Positions 4,964-27,524 of a DNA stretch of 64,000 nucleotides are shown here, one piece after another; position 1 is the first letter of the stretch, and every line of letters starts with the position of its first letter. The stretch is from Mageeibacillus indolicus UPII9-5. GTDB lineage: Bacteria > Bacillota > Clostridia > Saccharofermentanales > Fastidiosipilaceae. The notes under the pieces were generated by a model. It did no database searches. It was not told the origin of the DNA and saw nothing but the letters and a program-made list of their open reading frames with translations. The DNA lies in NCBI RefSeq assembly GCF_000025225.2, contig NC_013895.2, positions 992,001 through 1,056,000 on the forward strand, in the 5' to 3' direction. Made by a program: the position numbers and the translations under genes.

Positions 4964-6699
4964 TACATTCTTTCAACTACCTGTATATTTAGGATGCTCA
5001 AACCTTGTTTCAAGGCGAAACAAGTGGCCATGGCCAATGCCAAACGAGAGGTACGTAGTTCACCTTCTGCCTTGAGTATCGGGCATTCAGTATAGAACTT
5101 ATTAAATGCATGTGCTACAGCATTGATCTGCTTAGCTAAAATTGACGGCTCATTATTTTTTAGCGCGTTATTAAAGGCCGCTGCAAGAGCTTCGATTTGC
5201 CGGCACAGGTTAAACTCACTCTCCTCGTTCAGGCTTCCGGCAGCCACTGCGGCCAACAGCTGTTCCTTAGCATTGACAACGCCAGCTTTACGCAACATGC
5301 TGTGGGCTCTCGCATAAGTGTATTGCAAATAAGGGGCGGTATCGCCCTCAAAGTTGAGCATCTCTTCCCAAGAGAATACAATGTCCCGCTCACGCCCGTT
5401 ACGCAGAAAAGCATATGTTACCGCACCTAAACCTACCTTTTCGGCTATGTCAGCCTGTTCAGCTTCTGACATGTCTTCATAGCGTTCCGCCGCGTTCTTA
5501 CGAATAATTTCAAAGGTTTTGGCTACTGCTTCACTCAAAAGATCTTCAAGGAAAATAACATCACCTTCCCGAGTGGACATTTTCCCCTCTGGGAATTTAA
5601 CTAAGCCAAAACCAACGTGTTCACAACGATCGGCACAATCGTACCCTGCTTTCTTAAGTACGGCAAATACCTGTCGAAAATGCAGAGCCTGAGGCGTACC
5701 TACCACATAAATATTTTTGTAAAAATGCCAAGTAGCATCGCGATACAATATCGCTGCCAAATCCCTTGAGGCATAAATTGTAGTCCCATCCGATTTTAAA
5801 ATTATACAAGGCGGTAACTTAAGGTCATCGAGCTGCACTACCTGAGCCCCGTCGCTTTCCACCATCAAACCCTTTTGCCTAAGCATCTCCACCACGGCCG
5901 GGATTTTATCGGAATAAAAACTTTCACCGTTATAATTATCGAATTTAATTCCCAAACGGTCATATACCCGATTGAATTCAACTAAACTCAAATCACGGAA
6001 TTTTTGCCACATGGCCTTTTCTTCAGGCCGACCTTCTTCCAAACATTTAAAGGCAAAACGCGCCTGATTTTCCAATTCAGGCTTTTCTTTGGCTTCTTTA
6101 TGGAATTTAACATATATGCGCAAAAGCTCTTTGATCGGATCGGTTTCCAAAGCCTTGGCATCACCCCAAAGACGATAAGCGACAATCAGCTTGCCAAATT
6201 GGGTACCATAGTCCCCCAAATGGTTCAACTTTACCACATTGTAGCCGGCGGTTTGGTACATATTGGCGATAACTTGACCCAAAATAGTGGTAAACGCATG
6301 TCCTATATGGAAAGGCTTAGCAATGTTTGGCGAAGAAAATTCAACCAAAACAGTTTTATCATGCAAATCGGCAGTTGGGAAAACGGCGTGGGGGTCGGTT
6401 AGCACTTTACCTATCGTCTCTTTTATATATGAAGAACGATTAAGGAAAAAGTTGAGATAACCTCCGGTTTGTCTTATTTCTGTCAGTTCCGGCAGTTTAC
6501 CAGCAATACCGCCAGCAAGTTCCGTTGCAATAACCGGCGGAGCTTTATGCATAGTTTTGGCCAGTTTAAAGCAAGGCAAAGCGTAGTCGCCTAAGTCGGT
6601 CTGCGGCGGTATCTCAATAAAAGCTTCCATCTCATCTGGCTGCATGTTACACAAAGCCGCCAATTCGACTGCAATGTGTTTTTTTATGTCTACACTCAT
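4963..6699 (-). CDS. argS: Arginyl-tRNA synthetase (class I)
   Basis: 578 aa, normal length. It charges tRNA-Arg with arginine. The N-terminal additional domain is followed by the class I HIGH motif at residues 131-134 (within SSPNIAKPFHIGHAF). The KMSTREG signature follows about 245 residues later and the anticodon-binding domain lies at the C-terminus, ending in VVERM. The ATG at 6699 has GGAGGACG upstream. No T-box motif is visible in the roughly 130 nt before it. The downstream gene starts at the argS stop codon (TAATG overlap), so argS, the M3-like gene, rsmF and rdgB look like one transcription unit. Confidence 0.97.
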   Translation of the reverse strand: MSVDIKKHIAVELAALCNMQPDEMEAFIEIPPQTDLGDYALPCFKLAKTMHKAPPVIATELAGGIAGKLPELTEIRQTGGYLNFFLNRSSYIKETIGKVLTDPHAVFPTADLHDKTVLVEFSSPNIAKPFHIGHAFTTILGQVIANMYQTAGYNVVKLNHLGDYGTQFGKLIVAYRLWGDAKALETDPIKELLRIYVKFHKEAKEKPELENQARFAFKCLEEGRPEEKAMWQKFRDLSLVEFNRVYDRLGIKFDNYNGESFYSDKIPAVVEMLRQKGLMVESDGAQVVQLDDLKLPPCIILKSDGTTIYASRDLAAILYRDATWHFYKNIYVVGTPQALHFRQVFAVLKKAGYDCADRCEHVGFGLVKFPEGKMSTREGDVIFLEDLLSEAVAKTFEIIRKNAAERYEDMSEAEQADIAEKVGLGAVTYAFLRNGRERDIVFSWEEMLNFEGDTAPYLQYTYARAHSMLRKAGVVNAKEQLLAAVAAGSLNEESEFNLCRQIEALAAAFNNALKNNEPSILAKQINAVAHAFNKFYTECPILKAEGELRTSRLALAMATCFALKQGLSILNIQVVERM

Positions 6700-6832
6700 C
6701 TAATCGTCCTCCAAGCAAATGTATCAAGCATATTTCAGCATATGCTATAATAATACCAAATTTGCTTGCAAGAAACGATAGTATGAAAAAAATTCAGATT
6801 TTCTTTAGGTTTTTCGCTTCAGCCTGCTAACT

Positions 6833-8284
6833 TCAATCTTTACGATTCAGGACGCCTTCGTACAACTCCTTATAGCATTCAGCCGACTTTTGCCAAGAAA
6901 CGTCTTTATGCATAGCGTTCTGCACCAGCCTGTCCCAAATATCCCTGCTGTCGTTGTACAGATCACAAGCGTTGCGGACAACATTTAGAAAATCGTGTGC
7001 ATTTATATTGGTAAAAGAGAACCCGTTTCCCTCCATCGTGTATTGGTTGTAAGGCGTAACCGTATCTTTTAAACCTCCTGTTTCTCGTACAACTGGCAAA
7101 GTTCCATAATTCATGGCGATAAGCTGCGACAAGCCGCAGGGTTCAAACAGTGATGGCATCAGGAAAATATCGGCAGCAGCATAAATCCGATGAGCCAGCG
7201 CATTGTCAAATGTCAGACAGGCTCTAATATTTTCTTTGAAGTAGCCGGCGCAAATTCTAGTGCCTTCTTCGTAGCGATGTTCGCCCGTGCCCAAAACTAC
7301 CACTTGAGTCGGAATACCAGCAATCTCTCCCAAAACCCGCAAAAGTAGATCCATTCCTTTTTGATCAACCATACGGGTAATCATTGCCAAGAGTGGGCGA
7401 TCAGGCTCTGCATTGAGTCCGAGTTCAGCCTGTAAAGCTGCTTTATTCGCCGCCTTGCCCTCTTTAACATCGGAAGACGAATACGTACGAACCAAATGGC
7501 TGTCCGTGGCTGGATTATATTCCCGGCAGTCAATACCGTTCAATATTCCCTTAAGTTTAAATGAGTAATATGACAAAACTCCATCCAATCCCTCGCCGTA
7601 ATACGGTTGCTTTATTTCTTCTGCATAAGTTGGTGAAACGGTCGTCACCTGATCGGCATAGACAATGCCAGCTTTCATCATATTCGGCACACCATCTTTG
7701 AGAATACCATAGTCATTCAAAAAAGCTGTCGATAAATCGCAGTAATCAGCTATTCTTTCAAAAGAATGAACCCCCTGATATTTAAGATTGTGGATCGTAA
7801 AAAAGCATTTAACTTGATTAAAATAACCATATGGATGATAATGCGCCTGCAGCAGAGCCGGTATCAGCCCTGTCTGCCAGTCATTGCAGTGAATAATGTC
7901 GGGAACGAAGTCCATTGCCGCCCCCATGGCCTCAAGCACCGCACGCTGAAAGAAACAATATCTTTCAATATCAAAATCATAGTCGAGATATATAGCGTCA
8001 TGACCAAAATAATATTCATTATCAATAAAATAATGCGTAACTCCGTTTAAATCCATTCTAAACAATCCACTGTACATGGTTCGCCAGCCAAGTTTAATCA
8101 TCGTCCAGCGCATAAATTTGAGATCGCACCCGTAATTGTCGCGAATCCTCTTATACAGGGGCATGATAACTCTGGTATCTACTCCCAGCTTATTTAGTGC
8201 CGCCGGCAGTGCTCCGGCAACATCTGCCAGGCCGCCAACCTTTGCCAAAGGTGCTACCTCGGCCGAAACGAACAATACTTTCAT
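6833..8284 (-). CDS. glgA: Glycogen synthase (ADP-glucose, GT5 family)
   Basis: 483 aa. It elongates alpha-1,4-glucan from ADP-glucose. The N-terminal KVGGL motif (residues 15-19) binds ADP-glucose, and the C-terminal GT-B half has PSLFEPCGLSQL with the conserved Glu, followed by RETGGLKDTV. The frame is open 37 codons further upstream, but the ATG at 8284 is preferred: GGAGGAAAAACGT precedes it directly and the protein then begins with the usual MKVLFVSAEVAPLAKVGGLADV. It is the last gene of the glycogen operon, 14 nt after glgD. No clear hairpin terminator follows. Confidence 0.96.
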   Translation of the reverse strand: MKVLFVSAEVAPLAKVGGLADVAGALPAALNKLGVDTRVIMPLYKRIRDNYGCDLKFMRWTMIKLGWRTMYSGLFRMDLNGVTHYFIDNEYYFGHDAIYLDYDFDIERYCFFQRAVLEAMGAAMDFVPDIIHCNDWQTGLIPALLQAHYHPYGYFNQVKCFFTIHNLKYQGVHSFERIADYCDLSTAFLNDYGILKDGVPNMMKAGIVYADQVTTVSPTYAEEIKQPYYGEGLDGVLSYYSFKLKGILNGIDCREYNPATDSHLVRTYSSSDVKEGKAANKAALQAELGLNAEPDRPLLAMITRMVDQKGMDLLLRVLGEIAGIPTQVVVLGTGEHRYEEGTRICAGYFKENIRACLTFDNALAHRIYAAADIFLMPSLFEPCGLSQLIAMNYGTLPVVRETGGLKDTVTPYNQYTMEGNGFSFTNINAHDFLNVVRNACDLYNDSRDIWDRLVQNAMHKDVSWQKSAECYKELYEGVLNRKD

Positions 8285-8298
8285 ACGTTTTTCCTCCT

Positions 8299-9405
8299 CT
8301 AAACTATGGCACCTTTGCCTACTACTACCGGATAAGCTTCCTGTCCTGTTAACGTTATACCAGGCTTGATGTGAACATTTTTGTCGATTATACAATTTTC
8401 CAAATTACAATTCTCGCCAATAAACGAATTCTGAAAAATAATACAGTTGCGCAGTTTAGCTCCCGACGCCACCGTGACTCCGCGGAAAAGCAGCGAATCC
8501 TTTAAGTCCCCCTCAATAACACAGCCGTCGGAAATCATGCAGGACACAACTCTGCTTTCATTGCTGTAATATGTTGGCGACTCATCCTTTACCTTAGTAT
8601 AAACCGGCTGATCGGAGCCAAAAACCGCTTTACGCCCGGCCGGCGTTAAAGTTTTCATGGTCGCAGCAAAATAACCATGCACAGAGTGTATGCGCATCGC
8701 CATACCTTTAAACTCATAGCCACGTATATTCAAGCTATCGTTCAGCTGCATGAAACTAATGAAATCGACACCTGCCACTCCCCGGCTTAAATTGTCCTGT
8801 AAAATGCTGAGCAAAAGCTCACGTTCAATGACCATTACGTCCATAAAACATTTTCGCATTCCGCTCAAATTCTTCGGATTCAGCAGAAATCCTTTGAGTT
8901 TGTTCTTGCGATCAAATTCAAGCACGATGTTCGGCTCTTCAAAATCGGTAGTTTCTTTAGAAAAAAGAAGCGTTATATCAGCACCGGATTGTTCGTGCGA
9001 ATCAACCATTTGATTAAATTGCAAATTAAAAATAACAGAGCTACCGCCAATAACAACATGTTTACGCTTGCTGAAACGCAAAAAATTTATGATGGCACTT
9101 AGATCATTAAGCCCGTTATATGTGTCCGAAATAAGATATGGCGTCAAAATAGATAGGCCAGGAGACTTACGGTCAAGATCCCACGGGCTTCCCGTTCCAA
9201 GATGATCCATCAACGATTTATATTTATTGAAAGTTGAAACACCGATATTTTTTATTCCGGTATTCACCATATTAGAAAGCATAAAGTCAATGATACGATA
9301 ACGGCCGCCAAACGGCACGGCGGCAAGCGCACGCGGCAAAGTTAATTCGCCGAGTTGTATCTTTTTATCATCAGCAAAAATCAAGCCGACTGCATCAATA
9401 AACAT
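8299..9405 (-). CDS. glgD: GlgD, non-catalytic subunit of ADP-glucose pyrophosphorylase
   Basis: 368 aa, a paralogue of GlgC. The nucleotidyltransferase fold is evident from PFGGRYRIIDFMLSN and SPWDLDR. The N-terminal GGxGxRL nucleotide loop of GlgC is replaced by a sequence reading FADDKKIQLGELT, as expected for the regulatory GlgD type of Firmicutes. A left-handed beta-helix region with repeats such as NCIIFQNSFIGENCNLENCIID forms the C-terminus. In characterised Firmicutes GlgCD complexes, GlgD raises GlgC activity (family knowledge). It sits 15 nt after glgC and 14 nt before glgA. Confidence 0.93.
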   Translation of the reverse strand: MFIDAVGLIFADDKKIQLGELTLPRALAAVPFGGRYRIIDFMLSNMVNTGIKNIGVSTFNKYKSLMDHLGTGSPWDLDRKSPGLSILTPYLISDTYNGLNDLSAIINFLRFSKRKHVVIGGSSVIFNLQFNQMVDSHEQSGADITLLFSKETTDFEEPNIVLEFDRKNKLKGFLLNPKNLSGMRKCFMDVMVIERELLLSILQDNLSRGVAGVDFISFMQLNDSLNIRGYEFKGMAMRIHSVHGYFAATMKTLTPAGRKAVFGSDQPVYTKVKDESPTYYSNESRVVSCMISDGCVIEGDLKDSLLFRGVTVASGAKLRNCIIFQNSFIGENCNLENCIIDKNVHIKPGITLTGQEAYPVVVGKGAIV

Positions 9406-9420
9406 AGTATCCTCCCAGTT

Positions 9421-10677
9421 TTAAAATGTTGCAAAACATTTGCGCGCAATGTTCGCTTCGCCAAGTTCAGGCATATCTTTGACCATGCAATTACCTGGAA
9501 TCAACGACTTTTCACGTATGAGCAAACCATGCGTCAATACAGAAATATCCTCTGTACAGAGTTTGTTCTTATAGGGTGAATCGCCTTGAACTTGCGCTCC
9601 GATTTGAACATCTCGTTCAATCACACAATTCATTCCCACTATCACCTTGTCTAAAAACGCCCCTGATCTAACCGTAACCCCCGGCATCAGAACGCTGTTA
9701 CGGATGACAGCTCCCTTTTCCACATAAACTGAATGCGAAAGAACAGAATGTACGACTTCACCGTTTATTTCGCATCCGTCGGTCAGGCAACTGCCACGAA
9801 CCACGGCTGCCGATCCGACATAATGAGCTGGTTTGACTGGATTACGGCCGTAAATACGCCATGAAGAATCCATTAAATTAATATCTTCCGGACAGTCCAA
9901 AATATCCATATTAGCTTCCCATAGGCTGCTGATCGTACCTACATCCTTCCAATAACCGCTGAATCGATAGGCAATCAATTTGTGACCGTCTGCTAGCATA
10001 GCCGGAATAATGTTTTTGCCAAAATCATGGGTGGATTTTTCATCTTTTTCATCTTCGATAAGCTTGCGGCGCAGTACATCCCAACTGAAAATGTATATGC
10101 CCATACTGGCCAAGTTGCTACGCGGCTTGGCCGGCTTTTCCTCAAATTCAACAATGTTGTCGGCACTGTCTGTGTTCATTATGCCGAAGCGAGGTGCTTC
10201 CTCCCAAGGTACTTCCAAAACAGCTATTGTAGCATCGGCTTTATTATTAATGTGAGCTTTAAGCATAAACGAATAGTTCATTTTATAAATATGATCACCT
10301 GACAAAACTAGAACGTATTTCGGCGAAAAGCTGTCAATAAATCCAATATTTTGATAAATAGCATTAGCGGTATTACTGTACCAACCCGTGCCGCAGATTT
10401 TTTGATAAGGGGGCAGAATAAATGCTCCGCCCGAGTTACGATCCAAATCCCATGGATGGCCGTTACTCACGTAAGTATTGAGTGCTAGCGGCTGATATTG
10501 CGTCAAAACTCCAACAGTATCAATACCAGAATTGGTACAATTACTAAGCGGAAAATCGATAATTCTGTAACGACTGCCGAACGGTACGGCAGGCTTGGCC
10601 ATTTCGTCGGTTAAATAGCCCAAACGTGATCCCTGGCCACCGGCTAAAATCATAGCGATAATGTCTTTTTTGGCCAT
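9421..10677 (-). CDS. glgC: Glucose-1-phosphate adenylyltransferase, catalytic subunit
   Basis: 418 aa. It makes ADP-glucose from glucose-1-phosphate and ATP, the committed step of bacterial glycogen synthesis. The nucleotide loop LAGGQGSRL is at about residues 12-20. The Glc-1-P region includes [20 protein letters not shown], and YWKDVGTI lies before the beta-helix domain. The ATG at 10677 is preceded by a good AGGAGG-type site. It lies 47 nt after glgB and 15 nt before glgD. Confidence 0.97.
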
Positions 10678-21253: not shown

Positions 21254-22519
21254 CTATAAAAACTCTTCCCAAACTATATTAGCTACATCCAGCCCAAAAT
21301 CGGACAGCCGCCAACCACCTGCTTCGGCAATTAATAAACCTTTCCCCCTCAACTCATCCAGTTTAACTCGGAGGTTCAAAGGAATGTCGCAGCCAAATCG
21401 TTGAACGAATTCCTGTCTGGATACTCCGTCCGTTTTACGTAAGCCCAGCACAAAAAATTCACTCATGGCAGCCCTCCGGGAAATTATTTCTTCAATCGGA
21501 TAATCTAGCTTGGTTGGAACTTTTGAATCAGAAAAGTTACTAATATACTTAAGCGGATTAATCTCGCTGCCTGAACGGATCCCCCCTACAAAACGGTGCG
21601 CCCCGGCTCCGAATCCGTAATAACCTAGCCCATCCCAATAAACGATGTTATGCTTAGAACGGCTGCCTTCTTGCGCATAATTACTTACCTCATAGCGCGA
21701 AAAACCGTGATCTTTTAAATAGTCAGATACAAAATGTTGCTGTTGCCGTTCAGTCGTTTCGTCCGGCAGAACAGCCAAAGCCACCGAAGTCGCCAACTTA
21801 CTCTTACTATCAGGGGCATCCATGCCGTAAAGCGACGCAAAAGGAGTACCAGGTTCAATAATCAAGGAATACACTGAAATATGACGATAACCTGATTTAA
21901 TCACATGTTCTAAAGACATGTGAATATCCGCAAGACTTTGGGTCGGCAGTCCGATCATAAGGTCACAGGAAATGTTTTCTAGCCCCGCTCGTTGCAATGC
22001 CGCAGTAGTACAATCAAAATCCCGGCAAGTATGGATGCGTCCCAAAACATTCAGTAACCGATCATTATAAGACTGCAAGCCGACGCTTACCCTGTTGATT
22101 CCGAATCTTTTCACCTCCGACCAATCCAAGGCAGACGCACTGGATGGATTAGCTTCCAAAGTAATTTCACAATTGGGGGTCAAACCGAAAGTATGCCGTA
22201 AAACATCAATTATTTCGCCGATTTGTTGCGCAGAAAGCAAACTTGGAGTGCCACCGCCGAAATAAACGGTTCGCAAAGCCATGTCGAATGATGAAAATCC
22301 TTCGCTACCAAAATTCAGCTCCGACAGAGGTATGCTACTGCCAAACGCCCTAAGCATTTTCCGGAAATTAAATCGTATTTCATTAACTAAGGCATCAACA
22401 TAAGGTTCTATATATTTTTCCTTGCCGGCGTAAGAATTAAAGTCACAATAACCGCATTTCCGTTCACAAAACGGTATATGTATATAAGCTGCTCGCGGCA
22501 GACTCAACCATTCAAACAA
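21254..22519 (-). CDS. hemW: Radical SAM heme chaperone HemW (formerly HemN-like)
   Basis: 421 aa. The iron-sulfur motif HIPFCERKCGYC (Cys 18, 22 and 25) and the SAM-binding YFGGGTPSL are present. The C-terminal winged-helix segment GVSRQEFVQRFG is also HemW-like. The family delivers heme to acceptor proteins and was long misnamed as a coproporphyrinogen oxidase. The start is a TTG at 22519 with GGGGG upstream. It overlaps the DUF4276 stop by 8 nt, which suggests translational coupling. hemW next to hrcA is the normal Firmicutes order, but lepA is absent and the ATPase-DUF4276 pair stands in its place. Confidence 0.93.
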   Translation of the reverse strand: MFEWLSLPRAAYIHIPFCERKCGYCDFNSYAGKEKYIEPYVDALVNEIRFNFRKMLRAFGSSIPLSELNFGSEGFSSFDMALRTVYFGGGTPSLLSAQQIGEIIDVLRHTFGLTPNCEITLEANPSSASALDWSEVKRFGINRVSVGLQSYNDRLLNVLGRIHTCRDFDCTTAALQRAGLENISCDLMIGLPTQSLADIHMSLEHVIKSGYRHISVYSLIIEPGTPFASLYGMDAPDSKSKLATSVALAVLPDETTERQQQHFVSDYLKDHGFSRYEVSNYAQEGSRSKHNIVYWDGLGYYGFGAGAHRFVGGIRSGSEINPLKYISNFSDSKVPTKLDYPIEEIISRRAAMSEFFVLGLRKTDGVSRQEFVQRFGCDIPLNLRVKLDELRGKGLLIAEAGGWRLSDFGLDVANIVWEEFL

Positions 22520-23228
22520 TGTTTCCCCCGTTCTGCCAGTGGTTGTTTCGTTCGATCAGTCGCATCATTTGATAAAGATCGTTTTTGAACTTTCGGAAAC
22601 TCGGCGATCTATTGTTTTCTGCTGCCAGATTTTTTGCCAAAGCCGAAGCCCAATAATGCTTGTATGCTCCGACGGCTGGATAGCCGACAGCAATTAGTTG
22701 TTGCGCTTGGTGCGGCGGCATAATTATACGTGCCAAGGTTTCCCAAGTACCACAAACCGCATCTTGCTTATAGGTTGCATACAAATCACGGTCATAATCT
22801 GGGAAAGCCGCTGCCAAGGCCGACTCGTCAGCCAAAGCCCACGCTTCCAACTCTTCAACAGCTACGCCGATCACCAAACCGATTTCCGGAGCAAACAATC
22901 GTCCCATTCGTCTGATAGCAGACCTAAGTTCATCTGGCGAATTATCATCAGCATCCAGAACCACTACCAAAATTTCATCTACGCACTGAAGTCCCGGTTG
23001 GGACAAAACTTTGCGGTAGGCTCGCAACTTGGCCGGCAATAAATTCAACAAAGAAGCTGTATGCGGTTTTGGTGGTTCATTCCAAGAGAAATCAACCTTC
23101 CCTACACCGCGATGCGGATGAATACTGTATGTCCATTTTTCACCTTTGTAATTGCGCAAAAGAGAGTTGACCAAGGCGGCAAGTATAATCCCCCCTGACT
23201 TATCTTCAACCAAAATTTCTAAATGCAT
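22512..23228 (-). CDS. DUF4276 family protein, TOPRIM-like fold
   Basis: 238 aa. The N-terminal strand LEILVEDKSGG carries a candidate TOPRIM Glu at residue 8. The second acidic motif VVVLDADDN carries Asp at 92, 94 and 95. LLPAKLRAYRK and the conserved VAVEELEAWALAD at about 122-134 match DUF4276 as I know it. TOPRIM domains bind metal and often act as nucleases. The ATG at 23228 is preferred over longer frames because AGGTG precedes it and it lies 10 nt after the ATPase stop. DUF4276 genes commonly follow an AAA ATPase, as here, and some such pairs act in phage defence (inference for this pair). Confidence 0.78.
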   Translation of the reverse strand: MHLEILVEDKSGGIILAALVNSLLRNYKGEKWTYSIHPHRGVGKVDFSWNEPPKPHTASLLNLLPAKLRAYRKVLSQPGLQCVDEILVVVLDADDNSPDELRSAIRRMGRLFAPEIGLVIGVAVEELEAWALADESALAAAFPDYDRDLYATYKQDAVCGTWETLARIIMPPHQAQQLIAVGYPAVGAYKHYWASALAKNLAAENNRSPSFRKFKNDLYQMMRLIERNNHWQNGGNIV

Positions 23229-23238
23229 ATTTGAGCAC

Positions 23239-24543
23239 CTACGCAAAATGTCCGGAATACCAAAGCGAAGCCAAGCCAATACCTTCATTATACATGGCCC
23301 TGACTTTTGGGTCGGCAGCCACGCATTTGGCAACCACCCCAGCTTTAACCGCAACGCCGCTTTTGCTTATCTCAGGCTTCTTCTCTTCACCTTCCACCGG
23401 AAACACTTGGTAGGCCAAACGATTCCATTCATCATTCCAATCACTGTTTTCCAGTGGCGCGGTTTGTGTATGGTTCTTAAACAGCCACACTTCCCATGGC
23501 GCAAAATTATCCACCAACCCTAGGCTGTGTGTAGTGAGCAAAATCTGCGATGACGTTTTAAACGAAAATCGACGCAGCTGCTCGGCTAGCGAATTAATTT
23601 TGTCGGGATACAGTTCACTTTCCGGCGCATCAAGCAAAAGTAATGATCTTGGTTTGGGATCAAAGAGTAGTAATACTAACAAAAAATACCGTGCATCAGC
23701 ATTAGAAAAGTCACTGTTTATCAAAGCATTTTTTAAATTTGCCGTAAGTTTAACGCTTTGACGCACCGTCTGCAAAAATTCTTGATAGATATTTGGATGT
23801 TTTTTTTGCAAATAAGCCAAAACATTAGGTACATTATCGGCATATCGGTTGATATGCCGATGGCCGCCTGATAAATTTCCCAATTGGCTGGCTTGCAACA
23901 TAAAATCGCGAGATGCTCGCCCAGGTTGATTCATTAAAGCAGGGAACGATATGTACAGCCAATGTTCTATATATTCGTAAGGTTCGCGACAGAAATCTGC
24001 TCCTGGTAATTTAGCATAAACACTAAGCAACGGTAAATCATATGGTTTTACCACTTGTGACTCTTCATGTGTTCCGAAACGAGCAGTAAATTTATCATCT
24101 GCACAGCGGAAAAAATCACCCTTCTCCTGTTCGACAATTTGCAAACTTTCTGCAGTAATAAGCGGCTTTCCCTGATCGTTATCACCTATCTGCAGCATAT
24201 AATTGTAGATAATTCCCGTCTTTGCCGAGGAAAATAATATTCGCAAACTCATCGGTTCATCGGTGCCGCGTGTACGCAAGTCAAAAAATCCGTGTCGGCC
24301 ATTCATTTGAGCCGCAGACGTGACACCGTGCAAAACACAGTCCTGCAAAAAATCAAGGGCTTGTAACACGCTGCTTTTGCCGGCATTATTAGCACCGATA
24401 AGAACCGAAACCGATTGAAGTGAAAAATTCTTCCGCTCAGAACTTGTCGTCGACTCATTCAAGCCGGACAGCTGATCCACGTCCAAGCCTACCTTCACAT
24501 CAACCAATGAGGCAAAATTTTTAATATGTAAACCTAAAAGCAT
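23239..24543 (-). CDS. AAA/ABC-type ATPase (RecF/OLD-like), partner of DUF4276
   Basis: 434 aa. The N-terminus MLLGLHIKNFASL is typical of SMC/RecF-like ATPases. Walker A is GANNAGKSS at 50-58, Walker B is LLLLDAPESELYP at 301-313, and the H-loop region is LLTTHSLGLVDNF at 335-347. The usual ABC signature (LSDGTLR-like) reads FSNADARY at 279-286, and the Walker B catalytic Glu position holds Ala 306, so hydrolysis may be weak or differently organised. The gene starts 67 nt after the SPFH gene and ends 10 nt before DUF4276. No TOPRIM domain is fused at its own C-terminus; that activity seems to reside in the neighbour. Confidence 0.85.
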   Translation of the reverse strand: MLLGLHIKNFASLVDVKVGLDVDQLSGLNESTTSSERKNFSLQSVSVLIGANNAGKSSVLQALDFLQDCVLHGVTSAAQMNGRHGFFDLRTRGTDEPMSLRILFSSAKTGIIYNYMLQIGDNDQGKPLITAESLQIVEQEKGDFFRCADDKFTARFGTHEESQVVKPYDLPLLSVYAKLPGADFCREPYEYIEHWLYISFPALMNQPGRASRDFMLQASQLGNLSGGHRHINRYADNVPNVLAYLQKKHPNIYQEFLQTVRQSVKLTANLKNALINSDFSNADARYFLLVLLLFDPKPRSLLLLDAPESELYPDKINSLAEQLRRFSFKTSSQILLTTHSLGLVDNFAPWEVWLFKNHTQTAPLENSDWNDEWNRLAYQVFPVEGEEKKPEISKSGVAVKAGVVAKCVAADPKVRAMYNEGIGLASLWYSGHFA

Positions 24544-24610: not shown

Positions 24611-25582
24611 TCAATTTGCTGACTCATCTTTCTCGCTCATTTCTGCAGCAACGCTCTTGAGAGCTGCTGTAAGAGCGGCCATTCCCTGTATTTCTGAGGG
24701 AATGATGATTTTGGTCGATTTTCCGTCAGCCACTTTTTCCAAAGCTTCTAAGCTGCGCAAGGCAATTACCGCCTGACTTGCGCCTACATTTTTAATCATT
24801 TGCAAACCGTCAGCAGTAGCCTGTTTAACCTTCAAAATAGCTTGAGCCTGTCCTTCAGCTATCCTAATGGCGGATTCGCGTTGAGCATCGGCACGTAAAA
24901 TTGCTGCTTCTTTTTCACCTTCAGCAACTCTTATGGCCGCTTCCTTCTCACCCTCAGCCCGAAGAATGTTTTCCCGCTTCTCGCGCTCAGCTTTCATCTG
25001 ACGCTCCATAGCGTTTTGAATTTCACGCGGTGGCAGGATATTTTTCAGTTCCACCCGGTTCACTTTTATTCCCCAAGGATCAGTTGCTTCATCAAGAATT
25101 GAGCGCATTTTAGCATTGATAATATCGCGTGAAGTCAAGGTTTCATCCAATTCCAAATCACCTATAATATTACGCAGTGTCGTTGCAGAGAGATTTTCAA
25201 TCGCCATTACCGGATTTTCAATGCCGTAAGAATACAACTTCGGATCAGTAATTTGGTAAAAAACTATAGTGTCTATCTGCATCGTTACATTATCTTTAGT
25301 AATAACAGCTTGCGGAGCAAAATCGGCTGCTTTTTCTTTCATACTTACTACTTTGGCAACCCGATCAACGAACGGAATTTTTACATGCATACCAGTACCC
25401 CAAGTTGCGTGATACGTCCCTAACCGCTCGACAATGTAGTTGTGAGCCTGTGGCACAACCCTTATATTCCGTAAAACCAACACCAACAAAATAAGCAAAA
25501 TGACTACGAGAATTATCGTCCCCGGTTCAATAACGTTACTCAATCCGGCCATATCACCCAAACAAGAAGCAATTCGCAGCAT
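24611..25582 (-). CDS. SPFH/band 7 (stomatin-like, QmcA) membrane protein
   Basis: 323 aa. One N-terminal membrane helix (about residues 19-38) is followed by the SPFH domain beginning IRVVPQAHNYIVERLG. A long Glu/Ala/Arg coiled-coil region with repeats such as RAEGEKEAAIRVAEGEKEAA follows, then a short conserved tail. Family members form membrane-associated rings linked to microdomains. The ATG at 25582 has AAGGAG 8 nt before it; an upstream TTG is less likely. An NfeD-like protein is encoded just upstream, the classic SPFH-NfeD pairing. Confidence 0.93.
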   Translation of the reverse strand: MLRIASCLGDMAGLSNVIEPGTIILVVILLILLVLVLRNIRVVPQAHNYIVERLGTYHATWGTGMHVKIPFVDRVAKVVSMKEKAADFAPQAVITKDNVTMQIDTIVFYQITDPKLYSYGIENPVMAIENLSATTLRNIIGDLELDETLTSRDIINAKMRSILDEATDPWGIKVNRVELKNILPPREIQNAMERQMKAEREKRENILRAEGEKEAAIRVAEGEKEAAILRADAQRESAIRIAEGQAQAILKVKQATADGLQMIKNVGASQAVIALRSLEALEKVADGKSTKIIIPSEIQGMAALTAALKSVAAEMSEKDESAN

Positions 25583-25657
25583 AAATTCATCTCCTTCCAA
25601 AATTGTGCATTATATAGATTTTTAATGCGATTTATTTCATACTAACTATATATTATT

Positions 25658-26149
25658 CTACAGCAAATTTTTCTGTGTTTCCACCACAGCTTTAACACCC
25701 TTCAAGCCTACCACCTTTACTTTGGTTGACTTGGCAATCGGGTGCTCATCTGCGGAAACCGCGCTCCACGTCTGACCCAAAACGCTTATTTGTCCGATTT
25801 TCCGTATAGGATCTATATCATGCGTAACCAAAGCAATTTCACCGATAATGCGGTCAGCATTGGTAAATTCAACTCGGCGTGGCGAAACTTTCATGCGGTC
25901 ACGGCAACGCCAAAACACCCAAAGAGATATCAGCGATACAATCAGCATAACACTAATCTGAAGCGCAAACCCACCACCGCACAAGGTAACTACTAAGGCA
26001 GCCACTGTGCCGATGAAAAACCAAATACTAACCAAATTGACTGTAGCCAGTTCAACAACCAAGAAAAACACCGCCAATATCAGCCAAAGCAGCCACTCGT
26101 TTTGCCGACCAGAATAATTAATGGCAAACGCCCCAATTAAATCAGCCAA
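25658..26149 (-). CDS. NfeD-like membrane protein
   Basis: 163 aa. Two or three membrane helices (about residues 19-60 and 62-82) are followed by an OB-fold NfeD domain ending GLKGVKAVVE. The family partners stomatin-like proteins. The start is a TTG with GGAGG 7 nt upstream. It follows the M28-like lipoprotein gene by 14 nt and precedes the SPFH gene by 75 nt. Confidence 0.88.
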   Translation of the reverse strand: MADLIGAFAINYSGRQNEWLLWLILAVFFLVVELATVNLVSIWFFIGTVAALVVTLCGGGFALQISVMLIVSLISLWVFWRCRDRMKVSPRRVEFTNADRIIGEIALVTHDIDPIRKIGQISVLGQTWSAVSADEHPIAKSTKVKVVGLKGVKAVVETQKNLL

Positions 26150-26163
26150 ATTCTCACCTCCGT

Positions 26164-27354
26164 TTAATGCATTTTTGCGTTGTACAAACCGCTTTCAATG
26201 TATGTCTTAAGTATAAAAGTAGTTGAATTAATGCGTAATTCAAGCATTCCTTCAGGCAAGTTTTCTTTCAAAGTATCTATATCATCATAATTTGTTCCGC
26301 GTATGGCCCCGCCCGTAGGTTCAAAAAGTTGAGTGCGATTTTCCAATGTATTATTGACTTCCTTAACCTTGTAGTTACCGGATTCTATATAAACAACCGG
26401 CAGCCCGGCGGCATCAAAAGGGGTATGATCACTTTCTTTAAAAGTAAATTCACGATAAACAACTGAATTGGTCAACCCTTGGACTTTAACTTTAAATCCG
26501 CCTTGATTATCCAAAAGCCGTAAACCAGTATAATTGCTGACCGAAATATTTAACAAGTCATATAACGGTGTACGGAGGCGGTGGCGATTGTCTGGTGCGG
26601 CGGAATTAATACCGGCATTAGCATATAAGTTGTCACCACCGTATATCGAATCAACAACGATCACGCTTTCAATTTCCCGCCGTTGTTCATTACCTATAGA
26701 TGCAAGATAAGCCTTAGCTCCAGCAAACCCATCTCCGGAAGCCCCGAAAAATACTATGTCCACATCAAAACCTGTTGTAACTCCCTTAATTTGGCGCAAC
26801 ACGTTCAACAATACGGCAACGCCTGAAGCATTGTCCGAAATTCCATCAAATTTGGGTGCTTCAGACTTGTTTTCTTCACCCAGTTTGGTATCGTAATGAG
26901 CTCCGACAATAATTCTGCGCTTGAAATCGCCGACAGTAAGCGTTTTGTCAGGAGCTCCGGCTATATCGGTAGCCGCCGTCTGTGGTCGATAAAAGCCGCG
27001 TCCCGGCAGAGACACAATAATATTTCGGCCGCTTTTGCCGTTGCTGGTAAACTGCTGCTCTTTATATTCATAGCCAAGATTCTTTATTTGGCGAGCGATA
27101 AATTCGGCAGCGGCTTTTTCACCAGCGGAATATGCCTTGCGGTAAGGATCTTGCGTGGCCAGTTTAATTGCCATTTCCGATCCAAACGAGCCGTAGTCGC
27201 TGCCAGCCATTGCCTCTTCCCTGCCGCCTGTGCAGGCGGTCATTCCCGCCAACGGCAAACCCAGCGCCGCCCCGATCAAAACCGCCATAAAAATTTTTCT
27301 GCCAGACCGGCACAGCGGCGGTAAAACTACTTTAATTTGTTGCAATATTTTCAC
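26164..27354 (-). CDS. M28 peptidase-like lipoprotein lacking the catalytic Glu pair
   Basis: 396 aa. The start is taken as GTG at 27354, where GGAG lies 7 nt upstream. A signal peptide ends in a lipobox (LAGMTAC, Cys about 41), so the protein should be anchored outside the membrane. M28 landmarks are IIVGAHYDTK (His 153), GISDNASGVAVLL (Asp 174), VVDSIYGGD (Asp 235) and ESDHTPFD (His 310). The family GAEExGLxGS motif, which supplies the general base and a zinc ligand, reads GASGDGFAGA at about 204-213. Both glutamates are absent, so normal aminopeptidase activity is doubtful. It is first in the probable operon leading through NfeD and SPFH to hemW. Confidence 0.85.
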   Translation of the reverse strand: MKILQQIKVVLPPLCRSGRKIFMAVLIGAALGLPLAGMTACTGGREEAMAGSDYGSFGSEMAIKLATQDPYRKAYSAGEKAAAEFIARQIKNLGYEYKEQQFTSNGKSGRNIIVSLPGRGFYRPQTAATDIAGAPDKTLTVGDFKRRIIVGAHYDTKLGEENKSEAPKFDGISDNASGVAVLLNVLRQIKGVTTGFDVDIVFFGASGDGFAGAKAYLASIGNEQRREIESVIVVDSIYGGDNLYANAGINSAAPDNRHRLRTPLYDLLNISVSNYTGLRLLDNQGGFKVKVQGLTNSVVYREFTFKESDHTPFDAAGLPVVYIESGNYKVKEVNNTLENRTQLFEPTGGAIRGTNYDDIDTLKENLPEGMLELRINSTTFILKTYIESGLYNAKMH

Positions 27355-27524
27355 TGTCGATCTCCATCGTCTTTTTAAGTTTATCTTATGATATAACGCC
27401 AATGTTTTTTTTTCAATTTAACAAAATTGACTGACGCCAATCAAAACCAAACTTCTTTAGCATCTACAAGTATCAATAGTACACCACAAATACATATACG
27501 GCGAGCCTACACACTGCAATGCTT

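Follow-up and report, generated by a model that had tools for sequence, protein, structure and literature searches.

The gene pair upstream of hemW

The window analysed here is a stretch of 64,000 nucleotides (nt) of the chromosome of Mageeibacillus indolicus UPII9-5 (NC_013895.2, positions 992,001 to 1,056,000), and the object of this work is a pair of adjacent genes located on its minus strand. The first encodes an ATP-binding cassette (ABC)/OLD-like ATPase of the HEC-01A type (23239..24543, 434 amino acids, ATG start), the second a HEC-01B/DUF4276-like protein of TOPRIM-type topology (22512..23228, 238 amino acids, ATG start), plausibly a nuclease and so called in what follows. Next comes hemW, on the same strand (21254..22519, TTG start, TIGR00539 272.5 bits), which is the fixed neighbour of the pair across the order to which the bacterium belongs (Saccharofermentanales). 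Gene positions, the gap of 10 nt between ATPase and nuclease genes, and the overlap of 8 nt between the latter and hemW had been described in an earlier note on this DNA, and are all borne out by the open reading frames (ORFs). The start of the nuclease gene was set at the ATG where the alignment of its relatives begins, a mechanical ORF list having chosen an upstream TTG. An AGGTG ribosome-binding-like site (23236..23240, minus strand), read from the sequence, precedes the nuclease gene and overlaps the ATPase stop codon, and hemW starts inside the end of the nuclease gene, which makes translational coupling probable. A GGGGG tract is seen by eye 5 nt ahead of the hemW TTG. ATPase, nuclease and hemW are probably made from one transcript; a scan for promoters and terminators gave signals no higher than in shuffles.

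Both proteins match models of the PADLOC collection, and the pair, taken in the earlier note as a candidate for an undescribed system, is thus already a named candidate defence system, HEC-01. The ATPase belongs to AAA_21 (Pfam, E 3.5e-51), and scores 1036 bits against the HEC-01A model PDLC04181. This model was apparently built from the window ATPase itself or a near copy, and its E-value is thus not independent evidence; the next HEC-01A model is PDLC04182, at 7.8e-53. The second protein matches the HEC-01B model PDLC04205 (E 3.9e-65), and HEC-01B models match all 82 nuclease relatives that have been aligned. The DUF4276 label given earlier to this protein holds less well, since the match to PF14103 (17 bits) is under the Pfam gathering cut-off of 30.2. 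The ATPase also matches an AAA_21-type AriA model (PDLC02980), but no AriB model is found among the PADLOC matches of its partner, and membership in PARIS is not supported. According to the papers citing its original description, HEC-01 is one of the “Hma-embedded candidates” (Payne et al., bioRxiv 2024). No experiments on HEC-01 itself were found in the papers searched, in which the original description is reflected through citations. A search for “HEC-01” yielded solely a remark that Desulfovibrio piger genomes carry it, and no papers were found by searching for “DUF4276”.

A stomatin-like gene (24611..25600, minus strand) lies upstream of the ATPase gene, and in many relatives which lack the pair directly abuts hemW. 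The trio formed by M28 peptidase, NfeD and stomatin genes (24611-27402 in the window) forms a conserved block ahead of the hemW/heat-shock unit across a large part of the order. No clear defence neighbours reside in the 64-kb window. In Firmicutes lepA often adjoins hemW, and the pair had been thought to take its place. In this chromosome, however, lepA is found at 1064660-1066441, about 50 kb from hemW, and none of the regions examined in the relatives has lepA there; the idea is not supported.

Distribution and descent of the pair

The survey relied on one genome per species, many of them drafts, and on midpoint-rooted trees. The pair has been identified in 36 of the 58 genomes of the order, across four families. 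Wherever the contig is long enough for an assessment it adjoins hemW (35/35 genomes), co-directionally in 34 and often with an overlap of 1, 4 or 8 nt. The usual order of genes is [M28 peptidase - nfeD - stomatin] - ATPase - nuclease - hemW - hrcA - grpE - dnaK. At a single locus (L137, genome G018, 6372-9625) hemW is inverted, and the stomatin-ATPase-nuclease / hrcA-grpE-dnaK region is otherwise collinear. In 17 of the 22 genomes lacking the pair the flanks are closed up, the stomatin gene (12 genomes) or the M28 gene (5 genomes) lying directly before hemW; the remainder are contig ends or unclear cases. No relatives were detected at E <= 1e-12 in about 280 sampled genomes of the same class outside the order. 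The nucleases of the order form a single clade (support 98), whose sister group is made of five loci from phyla unrelated to it (Thermodesulfobacteriota, Pseudomonadota and Planctomycetota; support 99). The nuclease and hemW trees recover the same families, though imperfectly, and their pairwise distances are correlated (r = 0.74). Neither horizontal exchange nor relocation was seen within the order. Fixed synteny, a single clade, closed-up flanks and the absence elsewhere in the class point to one gain near the base of the order, after which the pair descended vertically and was lost several times. The pair is almost certainly resident and vertically inherited. A recent insertion, or a mobile cassette, is ruled out by order-wide synteny and closed-up flanks. 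Accordingly, the notion that the pair is inserted in the hemW unit stands as to location but not as to a recent event. The fixed synteny, the one origin, selection similar to that acting on hemW and the lack of defence neighbours are at odds with the picture of a dropped-in defence cassette.

Adjacency does not imply that the pair depends functionally on hemW. Such dependence was rejected, because nearly all the genomes lacking the pair keep hemW, and a hemW-like gene was found at only two distant loci, near the pair in L056 and several kb off in L049; proximity may merely reflect shared transcription. In one genome of the bacterium's own family which lacks the pair (L244, G001) hemW falls below the curated cut-off (125 vs 205 bits), and is possibly diverging.

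When the second protein alone served as query, 79 loci were recovered, spread over many bacterial phyla and including some archaea. An ATPase relative is located just upstream, on the same strand, at 78 of them, far above chance. At one locus of an Akkermansia metagenome-assembled genome (L050:4744-6600) ATPase and nuclease are found in one ORF of about 615 amino acids, an OLD-like HEC-01 fusion and the only such case seen. Carriage by viruses was confirmed for none of 37 IMG/VR candidates; relatives at 29-32% identity occur in one unannotated phage record and in two plasmids.

These data bear on the hypothesis that the pair still protects against phages by abortive infection, as a HEC-01/PARIS-type system which happens to have been kept at one site, and in which the ATPase would sense infection and free a toxic nuclease. 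We hold this as possible, if somewhat doubtful. The match of all the aligned nucleases to HEC-01B models fits the hypothesis, as does the patchy loss of the pair in the order; the architecture is that of PARIS, AbiL and AAA:TOPRIM_OLD toxin-antitoxin pairs (PMC12409363; PMC10440598). Among the 94 genes that neighbour the distant relatives, some encode proteins of type I restriction and BREX amid ordinary ones, with no formal background rate for comparison. On the other side, in the order the pair occupies a single fixed site among housekeeping genes, with no sign of exchange or relocation, and conventional OLD-type TOPRIM matches are sporadic in the same genomes (3/56 above cut-off).

Motif conservation and predicted folds

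The motifs of the ATPase were aligned in 76 sequences, 33 from the hemW-resident clade and 43 from distant pairs, those of the nuclease in 82; all the coordinates given below refer to the minus strand. In the hemW clade, Walker A and H-loop of the ATPase have been kept, the ABC signature is mostly gone, and the catalytic Glu is gone in 26 of 33 sequences. G50, G55 and K56 of Walker A (GANNAGKSS, residues 50-58, 24370..24396) are invariant in 76/76 sequences, and N52 is found in 75. H339 of the H-loop (TTHSL, 337-341, 23521..23535) is present in 32/33 clade members and 43/43 distant relatives. At the signature position (279-285, 23689..23709) the window protein reads FSNADAR, with SNAD in place of the SDGT of xSDGTLK which is found in 43/43 distant ATPases; in the hemW clade S280 is kept in 14, D281 in 3 and G282 in 13 of 33 sequences. 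At the Walker B/catalytic Glu position (301-309, 23617..23643) the window has LLLLDAPES, vs EEPEN, A306 replacing in the DAPES segment the Glu found in 43/43 distant sequences and in 7/33 of the clade. The nuclease is different. The TOPRIM-type Glu E8 (23205..23207) is present in 81 of 82 sequences, the last showing a gap, and the DxD motif D92-x-D94 (22947..22955), which aligns with the DxD of RloB, is invariant in 82/82. Equally invariant are E125, E126, E128 and W130 of the family motif EELEAW (125-130, 22839..22856), matching the E.W of RloB. Of the acidic residues singled out earlier in this protein, E8, D92 and D94 are thus conserved, and D95 is not. Residues invariant, or nearly so, in both nuclease groups include also D134, D156, T161, S208 and S210.

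The constraint acting on the two proteins is reversed in the hemW-resident clade. Among distant HEC-01 pairs conservation is higher in the ATPase (mean identity 58%) than in the nuclease (48%), which is ahead in only 3% of the comparisons. In the clade the nuclease (45%) surpasses the ATPase (33.5%), and is ahead in 99% of the comparisons. Both genes are under purifying selection. The ratio of nonsynonymous to synonymous substitution rates (dN/dS) is 0.04-0.22 for the nuclease, 0.08-0.22 for the ATPase and 0.10-0.22 for hemW. Decay of the ATPase to a pseudogene is ruled out, because its dN/dS is like that of hemW. Two members of the order (L152, L153) have a full canonical ATPase motor and branch near the base of the clade, and decay of the motifs is therefore probably later than the move to hemW. 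To judge from the motifs, the ATPase is more probably than otherwise a mostly non-hydrolysing partner. The sensor motor of an anti-phage system would be expected to be kept, whereas these motifs have decayed.

The AlphaFold2 model of the ATPase (pLDDT, a per-residue confidence score, 87.2) has as best match in the PDB by Foldseek the OLD nuclease 6p74 (E 1.2e-11). Other matches are GajA, the retron Eco8 effector, PtuA, and the heads of Rad50, SMC and RecN. The last group, together with vertical inheritance, recalls DNA-repair or recombination pairs such as RecF-RecR or Rad50-Mre11, in which a SMC/Rad50-like head and a TOPRIM protein would act on damaged DNA. Such a role seems very unlikely, as the nearest structural matches are OLD-type defence ATPases, and loss of both signature and catalytic Glu would be unusual in a repair motor.

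The second protein was modelled with confidence (pLDDT 94.6), and features a b1-a1-b2-a2-b3-a3-b4 core, E8 and D92-x-D94 lying at the ends of strands 1 and 3, respectively, in TOPRIM-type topology and register. Foldseek found no significant match to it in the PDB, and the fold assignment therefore leans on topology, motifs and a weak link to RloB, a borderline RloB-like viral protein being found in BFVD (prob 0.97, E 4e-3). By hhalign RloB is the best match at 17.7%, with DxD and E.W in register, and non-TOPRIM controls are all below 2%. RloB has been connected by others to OLD_TOPRIM through HHpred (PMC10440598). A TOPRIM fold is likely, not proven: prediction returned the expected topology and motifs but no significant PDB counterpart. 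The result that the earlier note would have taken as a refutation, a model lacking this fold, did not arise. Nuclease fold and activity of the second protein are, in our opinion, quite probable. The split ATPase/TOPRIM-like architecture proposed in the earlier note, akin to OLD and PARIS, agrees with the structural matches of the ATPase and the predicted topology of its partner.

The catalytic Glu of the VEG motif of OLD and RNase M5 aligns by hhalign with E8, at negligible probability. RNase M5, a TOPRIM ribonuclease, is missing from the order, and the pair could process stable RNA, possibly covering for this enzyme. The active site of AriB resembles that of M5, and AriB cuts tRNA (PMC12409363). 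M5 (TIGR00334) was found above cut-off in 0/56 genomes of the order; in a sample of the class a match, if only a weak one, was obtained in 28 of 60 genomes, and in 8 it exceeded the cut-off. Yet, members of the order which lack the pair also lack M5. Since the enzyme is missing both with and without the pair, there is no complementary pattern, replacement of M5 by the pair is unsupported, and a role of this kind looks very improbable.

A resident, plausibly domesticated pair and its known counterparts

Taken together, the data lead us to regard the two genes as a resident OLD/PARIS-like nuclease pair, probably domesticated (with a probability of about 0.5), with a candidate role other than that of a spreading defence cassette. 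The odds that its main role is other than phage defence look even. More tentatively, a mobile OLD/HEC-01-type immune pair may have been domesticated in the ancestor of the order to serve a resident, hemW-coupled nucleic-acid processing, with the nuclease intact and the ATPase turned into an ATP-binding gate devoid of normal hydrolysis. This is the reverse of the conservation seen in Cran1, an OLD protein of archaea which is inherited vertically and acts in the cell cycle (PMC12796447). Vertical inheritance pointed to Cran1 having left defence for the cell cycle, and the same clue applies to the pair described here.

According to this scenario, the ancestor of the order would have acquired a HEC-01-type pair once, and the pair would have settled between the stomatin-like gene and hemW. 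In PARIS, a hexamer of AriA restrains AriB until a phage protein is detected, and AriB, once released, cuts tRNA (PMC12409363). The conserved two-gene design suggests that a similar hold-and-release logic operates here, with an ATPase oligomer that would hold and gate the nuclease in the manner of AriA and AriB. The signature and the catalytic Glu have been lost and ATP binding kept, which suggests that the gate is set by the binding of ATP and not by its turnover, and the ATPase may hence be a switch, not a motor. The nuclease would be a metal-dependent phosphodiesterase cutting structured nucleic acids of its own cell, and its activation may be tied to the state of the cell.

Several observations weigh against domestication and a changed mechanism. 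The pair is dispensable, since 22 of the 58 genomes in the order lack it. The same would be expected of a defence system, and one that had long been resident could give a similar picture. The catalytic Glu has been kept in 7 of 33 order members, and the motor is fully canonical in L152 and L153. The TOPRIM assignment is not statistically firm by Foldseek or hhalign. In Cran1, changing the Walker B acids into alanine did not abolish ATPase activity, and T37 and H280-S281 mattered most (PMC12796447); loss of the motif is thus no proof of lost hydrolysis. In the window ATPase family the likely equivalents are S/T57 and H339, both kept, and Ser 340, replaced by Asn in most relatives.

Defence systems are usually recognised by mobility and genomic company. 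A pair labelled as candidate immunity by a defence database behaves here as a resident gene across a whole order, and, should domestication be confirmed, HEC-01 database calls can mislead. A frozen nuclease-type site next to a decayed ATPase motor predicts a changed mechanism, and the window pair lends itself to a simple check of whether binding of ATP is enough to gate an OLD-type nuclease, L152 and L153, ancestral-like and with a canonical motor, providing a built-in comparison.

HEC-01 is among the closest known systems. Both proteins fit its models, HEC-01B models cover the whole set of 82 relatives, and the gene order is identical, but the clade of the order is fixed at hemW, is vertically inherited and has mostly lost the canonical signature and catalytic Glu of the ATPase. 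These are present in 43 of 43 distant HEC-01A proteins, as a trait which they share and which the database definition does not include. OLD nucleases (class 1 OLD, GajA, retron Eco8 effector) share the ATPase fold, 6p74 being the top match, but are encoded (classes 1, 2 and 3) as one polypeptide, in contrast to the two ORFs of the window. The TOPRIM effectors RloB and AbiLii provide the best profile match of the nuclease (17.7%), with DxD and E.W in register, and the RloB-like match in BFVD, yet in sequence the nuclease shows no significant similarity to the RloB family. PARIS similarly consists of adjacent genes for a split ABC ATPase and a TOPRIM effector (AriA and AriB), but the effector of the window is not AriB-like, and the pair is not cargo of phage satellites. 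Finally, Cran1 (“class 5”) is likewise inherited vertically across an order (PMC12796447). It is one protein in which both active sites are conserved, and relies on its ATPase, whereas the window pair is made of two proteins, the nuclease site conserved and the ATPase motifs decaying. If the proposed reading is correct, the pair is a bacterial two-gene counterpart of Cran1.

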